Positions 12,764 to 15,700 of a stretch of DNA of 64,000 nucleotides are shown here, piece after piece; position 1 is the stretch's first letter; every line of letters starts with the position of its first letter. This DNA is from Bolinopsis microptera. Its lineage: Eukaryota > Ctenophora > Tentaculata > Lobata > Bolinopsidae. The stretch lies in contig NC_087084.1 of the NCBI RefSeq assembly GCF_026151205.1, positions 3,628,845 through 3,692,844 on the forward strand, given 5' to 3'. Both the position numbers and the translations under genes were made by a program. A model generated the notes under the pieces. It saw only the letters and a list, made by a program, of their open reading frames with translations, did not search any database and was not told the DNA's origin.

Positions 12764-15700
12764 ATGAGCTTTGCTGTATTTTTGACAACGATTATAGGTA
12801 TTTCACTCGAGTTAACCCAAATTCTCGCCCCCAGCAAAGACTCATCAGAGCTGAGGAACGCCACAAGAAACCTCCAGTTGATAGCAGACGCGTTCGGAAG
12901 AATATGTCTAACCCTCTTCACCTGCGTCATGTTGTACCTTATATACAACTCTGTGAAGTCAGCCGGCAGCAAGGGTGGTGCCGGAGGATTGGGGGGCCTT
13001 CTTGGGGAGGACGCTAGTTTTGAGGTATGTTAAACTGGGGTTTGGGGGGCCTTCTTGGGGAGGACGCTAGTTTCGAGGTATGTTAAACTGGGGTTGGGGG
13101 GCCTTCTTGGGGAGGACGCTAGTTTCGAGGTATGTTAAACGGGGGTTAGGGGGCCTTCTTGGGGAGGACGCTAGTTTCGAGGTATGTTAAACTGGGGTTG
13201 GGGGGCCTTCTTGGGGAGGACGCTAGTTTCGAGGTATGTTAAACGGGGGTTAGGGGGCCTTCTTGGAGAGGACGCTAGTTTCGAGGTATGTTAAACTGGG
13301 GTTGGGGGGCCTTCTTGGGGAGGACGCTAGTTTCGAGGTATGTTAAACGGGGGTTAGGGGGCCTTCTTGGGGAGGACGCTAGTTTCGAGGTATGTTAAAC
13401 GGGGGTTAGGGGGCCTTCTTGGGGAGGACGCTAGTTTCGAGGTATGTTAAACTGGGGTTGGGGGGCCTTCTTGGGGAGGACGCGAGTTTTGAGGTATGTT
13501 AAACGGGGGTTGGGGGGCCTTCTTGGGGAGGACGCTAGTTTCGAGGTATGTTAAACGGGGGTTAGGGGGCCTTCTTGGGGAGGACGCTAGTTTCGAGGTA
13601 TGTTAAACTGGGGTTGGGGGGCCTTCTTGGGGAGGACGCTAGTTTCGAGGTATGTTAAACGGGGGTTAGGGGGCCTTCTTGGGGAGGACGCTAGTTTCGA
13701 GGTATGTTAAACGGGGGTTAGGGGGCCTTCTTGGGGAGGACGCTAGTTTCGAGGTATGTTAAACTGGGGTTGGGGGGCCTTCTTGGGGAGGACGCTAGTT
13801 TCGAGGTATGTTAAACGGGTGTTGGGGGGCCTTCTTGGAGAGGACGCTAGTTTCGAGGTATGTTAAACCAATCAGCTTCCAGCAGCTACCAATCAAATCT
13901 CTAAATCGTTGTCACGTGACAGGTAATGACGCCCGACTTGACTTTTGAGGACGTTGCTGGTAACGAACACGCTCTACAAGAAATGCAAGAACTTGTCGGT
14001 TATCTCACTAACCCTGCTAAATACATCGGTCAGTTAAAATCCTTCTATCTGTGGTTATTATTTAGTGATCGTTCTTACTTTCATTTTATCATATTATGCT
14101 AGTAAGTGAGTAAGTTTCCACTCTTAACAATTAAAATTGAGATAAACATCTAAAATTAAAAGAAGTAGTATCTAGATATGTAATTACAAATTAACAAAAA
14201 CCTACCTTAACCGGAAGCCCCATCATTTATACTCATTAGCAACTAATTAGTAATTAGCAACTAATTAGCAACAACCCTGTCAGAGATGGGATGTGAGATC
14301 CCTAAAGGATACTTACTCTGTGGACCTCCCGGTGTTGGAAAGACCCTCATGGCTAAAGCACTGGCTGGTGAAGCCGGTGTTCCTTTCTACTACTCCTCCG
14401 GTAATTAAATAATTAATTAATTAATTAATTTCATCATACTGATTATATTATATATCGCTATTCCAATATTCTTGTTTTTAAACAAGAATATTTTTATAAT
14501 TTCAAAATTATATTTGTCCGTTATGTGTAAAATCACAAAATGTTTCAAAGCAAGATAACGAGATAACCATTATATTATTTTCACAGGTTCAGGGTTTGAG
14601 GAGATATTTGTCGGGGTTGGAGCTGGAAGAGTTAGGAAAATGTTCGAGCAGGCTCAAGCCAACGCCCCTTCCATCATCTTCATAGATGAGATTGATTCTA
14701 TCGGTATGTTTGGTACCCTTGGGGTATCCTTAATAAAGGAGTTACGCCAGCCTGGTATTTTCAAATTATTTACTGTCTACATTGTTCATAAAGAAGATTA
14801 AAAAATCATTAGCAGTCAGTTTTCCATTTTTTATGGCGCATTAACTTTGACTAAGTAATCCCTTCATCGCAGGTCAAAAACGAAAGATTAACGATCTAGG
14901 CTATTCAAATCGGGGCACTCTCAATCAGATGCTGTCTTGTATGGATGGTGAGTTGACTCCTACAAACACATGACACTTCTTTTTGCTCTTTTTAATAAAA
15001 GTGTATAGAACCCCCCCCCCCCCCCCCCCCCCCCCCTACATACATACTTGAGAATTCTGAGAAAAAATGATTTTCACGCTGAGTGAAGGACAGTGTAGGC
15101 ACTCACTTTATTTCCCCCGGCCAGATTTTGAGAACTCAGTTAGTGTTACAACTCTCCTCAGGTTTTGAGAATAATAACGGGGTTATAGTAATAGCAGCTA
15201 CTAACGAGCCGGACACATTGGACAGTGCGCTGACCAGGGAGGGACGTTTTGATACCAAGATATCAATCAGGGTACCCCCAATCAAGGTTAGTTCATGGTT
15301 ACAACATGTCACGTACACTGTACAGTGACGTCATATTATCAGGTTATATGATATTAACAAGTGAAAGGCTTAACTGAGGTCCACAAACTTTAGATTGTGC
15401 ATTGGCGACTTATACAAGTATTACTGGCCAAACTATCATCTTTCCCTCACTTTTCTCCTAAATTATATTAATAATTTAATTACCAAAAATCATACGTTCA
15501 TAAATTTATACGTTCATAAAGCTACGATAAACAAAAATAATGACACCACGAGACATGACGTTACTCCAACTATTATAACGACTCAACTTATTTGTTACAC
15601 CTCTGGAAGAGTAATGTTAACATCACCGCATCTTTACTAATCTACAACCGTTATTTCTAACGCCTCCCCTTGCTCAGGGACGGCTGGAGATACTGAAGGT

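Follow-up and report, generated by a model that had tools for sequence, protein, structure and literature searches.

When a tandem repeat has copied the 5' splice site of a coding exon many times over, which of the identical sites does the spliceosome use, and do the others serve any purpose? The question is raised by a protease gene in a 64,000-nucleotide stretch of the genome of the ctenophore Bolinopsis microptera (contig NC_087084.1, positions 3,628,845 to 3,692,844), which in its entirety we call the window. The product of this gene looks like an FtsH-type membrane protease: its translation contains an AAA domain (PF00004, 8.4e-42) followed by a peptidase M41 domain (PF01434, 1.6e-31) with the HEXXH motif, here in the form HEAGH. 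The features of the gene and its repeat are as follows, with a slash marking the exon-intron border in the motifs and the sites downstream of the first donor being termed decoys.

12764..17647, plus strand: gene copy 1, FtsH/M41 protease, with 12 exons, 11 GT-AG introns and an open 541-aa AAA + peptidase M41 protein with HEAGH
12764..13024, plus strand: exon 1, 87 codons, phase 0, encoding two hydrophobic segments and a Gly-rich linker (from translation and hydropathy)
12989..13868, plus strand: minisatellite of 17 units (TRF and unit map), which multiplies the last 36 nt of exon 1 and the start of intron 1
13022..13030, plus strand: likely true donor of exon 1 (donor 1), GAG/GTATGT; the frame to exon 2 is kept and the AFG3L2 alignment spans the join
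13031..13033, plus strand: in-frame TAA, retained with any decoy; product ...FEVC-stop, 89 aa
13075..13863, plus strand: sixteen identical decoy donors GAG/GTATGT (exact matches), at 13075 and then each 52 bp to 13855
13923..14028, plus strand: exon 2, acceptor ...CACGTGACAG/GTAATG; the AAA module starts here (TFEDVAGNE)

The repeat is recovered by TRF as a single array (12989-13868, period 52, 16.9 copies, 96% matches), whose units are arranged head-to-tail with a spacing of 53 bp once and then 52 bp fifteen times. It extends into intron 1, downstream of the exon end at 13024. Exact matching recovers GAG/GTATGT, identical over nine bases, in all 17 units. In the window as a whole this motif occurs 19 times, 17 times in this array and twice in a minus-strand array described below, against 0.28 expected occurrences, and none of 100 shuffles reached that number. 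The first-pass annotation had described a 52-bp unit that multiplies the donor 17-fold, and this is borne out. It had placed the array at 12970-13870 and assigned about 30 coding bases to each unit; the TRF bounds are 12989-13868 and the exonic part amounts to 36 bases in the TRF phase. The possibility that the array is itself a coding repeat was rejected, as its three plus-strand frames stay open for 39 codons at most.

When 13024 is joined to 13923, the reading frame continues unbroken and the join falls at residues 87/88 of the protein. The AFG3L2 chain 6nyy_A (E 3.8e-07) aligns with query residues 73 to 131, across the exon 1-exon 2 join and with small gaps, and its Gly-rich stretch comes to lie opposite the Gly-rich stretch encoded by the repeat. 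Two FtsH chains, 7wi4_A and 7vhp_A, also cross the join. Since the frame is kept and AFG3L2 is aligned across the join, donor 1 is likely to be the true donor of exon 1. Of the 17 matches that solved structures gave with the first 132 residues, 3 cross the join; the remaining 14, the four highest-scoring ones included, begin no earlier than residue 89. Use of any decoy would retain the TAA, which starts at the seventh base of intron 1, and yield the 89-aa product without an AAA domain. The gene model agrees with the earlier placement of the end of exon 1 at 13024 and of an in-frame TAA after the first donor, as well as with the claim that only the first donor is productive and that the later ones lead to premature stops. 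A search of genome_contigs with the first 324 protease residues returned one bacterial relative (L001), and a protein search of viral_contigs with the protease found nothing. Likewise, a 27-base piece of the unit had no exact match in viral_contigs or genome_contigs, both being collections without eukaryote genomes.

With donor 1 in use, intron 1 of this copy is 898 nt long and ends at 13922, as against 165-391 nt in the other ten introns of the gene; splicing from the last donor, which corresponds to a single unit, would leave an intron of 65 nt. A tandem repeat of this kind can thus lengthen an intron with the protein untouched, from 65 nt with one unit through 221 nt with four to 898 nt with 17.

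What might set donor 1 apart from its copies is not apparent in the sites themselves. On a matrix built from the other ten donors of the gene, GAG/GTATGT scores 8.6, compared with 0.2-7.4 for those ten in leave-one-out scoring, and just 2 of 248 GT sites in the gene region outside the array score as well. The U1 duplex energy of the array donors is -6.9 kcal/mol, within a range of -4.4 to -10.4 for the gene. As the nine bases are identical in all 17 sites, donor strength cannot decide the choice among them. Nor do the near flanks differ much: donor 1 and the decoys have about 36 nt upstream in common, except for one T to C base in 15 of the 16 decoys, and at least 11 nt downstream. Local sequence therefore hardly distinguishes the donors, and position, the unique upstream part of the exon or the order of synthesis must do so. 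RNA folding, computed without G-quadruplexes, gives donor 1 an unpaired probability of 0.24 and the decoys 0.19-0.78; a structure that hides the decoys was hence rejected, since folding gives donor 1 no advantage. A 156-nt piece of the array folds little better than its shuffled versions (z -1.25, with 24 of 200 shuffles as good). Competition between duplicated donors has been the subject of experiments, some of them cited in PMC8724738, and the 17 equal donors here offer a natural experiment on the choice that the spliceosome makes between 5' splice sites of equal strength. A four-unit copy with two dead decoys provides a built-in comparison.

This shorter array lies in a large inverted duplication within the window, the arms of which are about 94% identical in long matches. 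Arm 1 (3256-24698) and arm 2 (25287-42361) both carry the protease gene together with a receptor-like gene. The duplication may be a real palindrome or two joined haplotypes, and the gene copies may accordingly be alleles or true duplicates. The second copy and its array are located as follows.

29113..33326, minus strand: gene copy 2, with an intron 1 of 221 nt and three defects in exons 11-12 (frameshift, changed donor, in-frame stop)
32899..33101, minus strand: copy 2 array of four units; donors 1 and 3 intact, donors 2 (GAG/TTATGT) and 4 (GAG/CTATGT) lost at +1

The two copies, which may be alleles or paralogues, thus differ in repeat number (17 versus 4) and in the length of intron 1 (898 versus 221 nt). 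Over 458 codons of exons 1-10 they show 15 synonymous changes and one nonsynonymous change (dS 0.048, dN 0.001), with exons 11-12 being excluded as they are broken in copy 2. Within exon 1 itself, four of the five differences are synonymous. The predominance of synonymous changes across exons 1-10 indicates that exon 1 is real coding sequence that is held at the protein level. The decoys fare differently: all 16 are intact in copy 1, but two of the three in copy 2 have lost the G at +1, once to T and once to C, which argues that the decoys there are not kept by selection; by this evidence they are not preserved in copy 2. That the same essential base was struck in two of three decoys, in a different manner each time, is suggestive of selection against decoys, with the reservation that it concerns only two events noticed post hoc. 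The first-pass annotation had proposed both that the array could tune expression by its length and that it could simply persist because the first site dominates. With two of three decoys of copy 2 dead at +1, the former idea is not supported and the latter fits better.

Other differences between the arms were also observed. In copy 2, exon 11 (29469-29549, minus strand) has a small insertion and an altered donor, and exon 12 (29113-29280, minus strand) has an in-frame stop. These defects may reflect real decay or consensus error, part of the stretch resembling consensus noise. Between intron 5 and exon 8 (14948-16259 in copy 1), the copies differ at 9 of 1,303 aligned sites, compared with 10 of 158 in the flanking intron 4 and 8 of 164 in intron 8, a pattern such as might be left after gene conversion or recombination. 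A LINE-like element with endonuclease and reverse transcriptase (8990-11866) is found in arm 1 but not in arm 2, where the segments meet at the matching site (36420-36433) with a 14-bp overlap. A domain scan of arm 1 gave matches to LDL-receptor class A domains and to rhodopsin-type 7TM domains in two adjacent frames (3481-7068, minus strand), which probably represent one receptor-like gene; its counterpart in arm 2 lies at 38236-42100 on the plus strand. A 51-bp repeat in the tail of this gene counts 7.8 units in arm 1 as against 13.8 in arm 2. The middle of the inverted duplication (25184-25224) holds about seven telomere-like repeats of the TTAGGG type. Beyond the arms, the region 52001-63600 resembles unpolished consensus, with long homopolymers (39 G, 37 C) and a shifting composition.

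The history of the array is partly legible from two variable positions in the spacer between donors. Their states in copy 1 read TG TG GA TG GA TG GA GA TG GG GA TG GA GA TG GG, and those in copy 2 read TG GA TG. The TG/GA alternation is common to both, which suggests that the array predates the separation of the gene copies. Six consecutive spacers recur as a block in the variant map of copy 1 (5-10 being the same as 11-16); an equally long block arose in 386 of 20,000 shuffles. This fits block duplication via slippage or unequal exchange. In addition, some units carry private variants. The array is also G-rich: 43.6% of its 25-nt windows have a G4Hunter score of at least 1.2, versus 0.67% in the first 52 kb minus both arrays, and the score reaches a maximum of up to 2.2. 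The Gly-rich linker accounts, through its codons, for part of this G-richness. Neither array contains a strict four-run G4 motif (loops of up to 12 nt).

We regard the array as probably an ordinary G-rich minisatellite on an exon border that is tolerated since donor 1 is used and any leakage is lost to nonsense-mediated decay. It would have arisen by tandem duplication of a segment of about 52 bp straddling the end of exon 1, with the resulting G-rich minisatellite expanding into intron 1. Splicing would normally occur at donor 1, which we infer to be favored as the first to be transcribed, the nearest to the cap and the sole donor beside unique exon sequence. Transcripts using a decoy would keep the stop codon and be removed by nonsense-mediated decay. 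Being of low cost, the array would persist, with its length shifting by slippage or unequal exchange, perhaps aided by the G-runs, and the decoys would have no function of their own. This account is consistent with the 17 donors and the unit map, with the 541-aa AAA and M41 protein that donor 1 yields, along with the AFG3L2 alignment across the join, and with the constraint on exons 1-10 set against its absence from the copy 2 decoys. The difference in array length, the repeated six-spacer block and the high G4Hunter scores further agree with it, as does the human ABCA7 precedent, in which use of the next donor is about 2% and independent of array length (PMC5954066). Several observations weigh against it: identical donors give no intrinsic reason for preferring the first, folding does not expose donor 1, the strict G4 motif is absent from both arrays, every decoy in copy 1 is intact, and only three of the 17 structure matches cross the join. 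Moreover, in classical duplicated-donor experiments on competing 5' sites, the site nearest the acceptor can be favored; here that site would yield the 65-nt intron, which is below the range of the other ten.

Alternatively, the array might be a dosage device, with the decoys competing for U1 and steering transcripts into nonsense-mediated decay in a proportion that depends on length, such that repeat number sets the protease level. The equality of the copy 1 decoys with donor 1 over nine bases and their score above that of the other ten donors, the premature stop that follows from each decoy, and the differing array lengths of the two gene copies are compatible with this. The length of the ABCA7 VNTR does alter splicing, but of exon 19 and not through use of the next donor, and the isoform retaining one unit is constant across lengths (PMC5954066). 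The latter, together with the dead decoys of the short array, makes a dosage device unlikely. A version of this idea, in which unit number acts as a rheostat for the share that decays and over-leaky copies are corrected by point loss of decoys, as in copy 2, appears rather improbable. A different way of making the decoys harmless would be recursive splicing, with AG/GT in the unit being dual-specific, the array being removed stepwise and the decoys being mere intermediates, as in polyubiquitin UBC. AGGT is indeed found in 17 of 17 units in copy 1, and tandem AGGT repeats in UBC are spliced as donor or acceptor, with an analogue in VCX3A (PMC10809524). Against it, the unit AG scores -3.4 to -0.5 as an acceptor, and the typical unit (-2.3) is equalled or exceeded by 121 of 270 other AG sites; the exon 3 acceptor, which is among the 11 true ones, is equally low (-2.75, leave-one-out), and the acceptor score is thus not decisive. 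A pyrimidine tract is absent from the unit by eye, and intron 1 ends outside the array rather than at a unit border. We hence consider recursive splicing very unlikely.

The remaining alternatives bear on the reality of the array and on roles apart from splicing. The copy 1 array could truly be shorter or longer than assembled, or the palindrome could be two joined haplotypes. The resemblance of the region from about 52 to 63.6 kb to low-quality, homopolymer-rich consensus points in this direction, as does the inverted arm, whose identity of about 94% in long matches is what a haplotype join could yield. However, the private unit variants and the structured variant map, the same TG/GA spacer types in the arrays of both arms, and the unequal lengths (399 versus 726 bp) of a further repeat in the arms speak against an assembly effect, which we judge improbable. 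The concern of the first-pass annotation about an assembly expansion is accordingly lessened by the second array, the unit-specific variants and the variant map, though not removed. An assembly artefact as the whole story was set aside as not the most likely, given the array in both gene copies and the private unit variants. Finally, U1 telescripting provides the background for a landing platform for U1 snRNP, in which tandem donors raise transcription or suppress early polyadenylation independently of splicing. The 17 equal U1 sites (-6.9 kcal/mol) less than 1.1 kb from the start codon would suit such a role, but the copy 2 decoys are unconstrained, and the chance that the array works in this way seems slim indeed.

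By sequence comparison the arrangement is of a known kind, a donor-bearing minisatellite, with the ABCA7 intron 18 VNTR and IFI6 as its closest precedents. The first-pass annotation had called splice and coding sequence locked in a tandem repeat unusual, a description that we soften in view of these two cases (PMC5954066; IFI6 cited in PMC4526556). As described in PMC5954066, the human ABCA7 VNTR starts at the exon donor and has a 25-bp unit present in about 12 to 427 copies. The donor one unit in is used in around 2% of transcripts, with the unit being retained and causing a frameshift and a premature stop; skipping of the next exon depends on VNTR length and the one-unit-retention isoform does not (PMC5954066). 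As in ABCA7, the first unit here bears what is likely the true donor, and later units repeat it; the length differs between the two gene copies. The ABCA7 unit is described as beginning exactly at the GT, whereas the 52-bp unit of the protease gene begins 36 nt inside the exon, with coding sequence being repeated and a TAA placed in the intron. Further, the ABCA7 exon is internal and that of the protease gene is the first coding exon.

The IFI6 unit is reportedly 12 bp long and in frame. In this gene (6-16, G1P3), two downstream units of the minisatellite are used as donors, giving rise to three mRNA species and to isoforms (Turri et al. 1995 via PMC4526556). Thus, in both IFI6 and the protease gene a minisatellite supplies several donors at one exon end; however, isoforms are encoded in the former and every decoy leads to a stop in the latter. 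UBC and VCX3A likewise have an AGGT splice signal locked in a tandem repeat, but there, according to the account in PMC10809524, one and the same AGGT plays both parts, donor and acceptor, and the intron spans a whole number of units. In the protease gene, the units seem ill-suited as acceptors and the acceptor of exon 2 falls outside the array, with intron 1 ending at 13922 (54 bp past the array) and its 898 nt being no multiple of 52.

The array and human CEB1 both have a G-rich unit that includes six consecutive Gs. In yeast, changes in the length of CEB1 are tied to G-quadruplexes, and non-canonical forms, including those with zero-nucleotide loops, affect the stability of the minisatellite (PMC5491262). 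Quadruplexes and instability are reported for CEB1, whereas the array here is compared with it by sequence; the abstract and outline of the CEB1 account make no mention of splice sites (PMC5491262). Lastly, tandem duplications at intron borders are described for the potato RdRp gene and for 24-bp AGGT repeats in fission yeast (PMC4974935), and internal tandem repeats at intron borders for human genes (PMC2812944). What these cases have in common with the protease gene is an intron remodelled by tandem repetition at or across its border with an exon; the outcome there is new introns (PMC4974935, PMC2812944), and here it is a longer intron with a multiplied donor.
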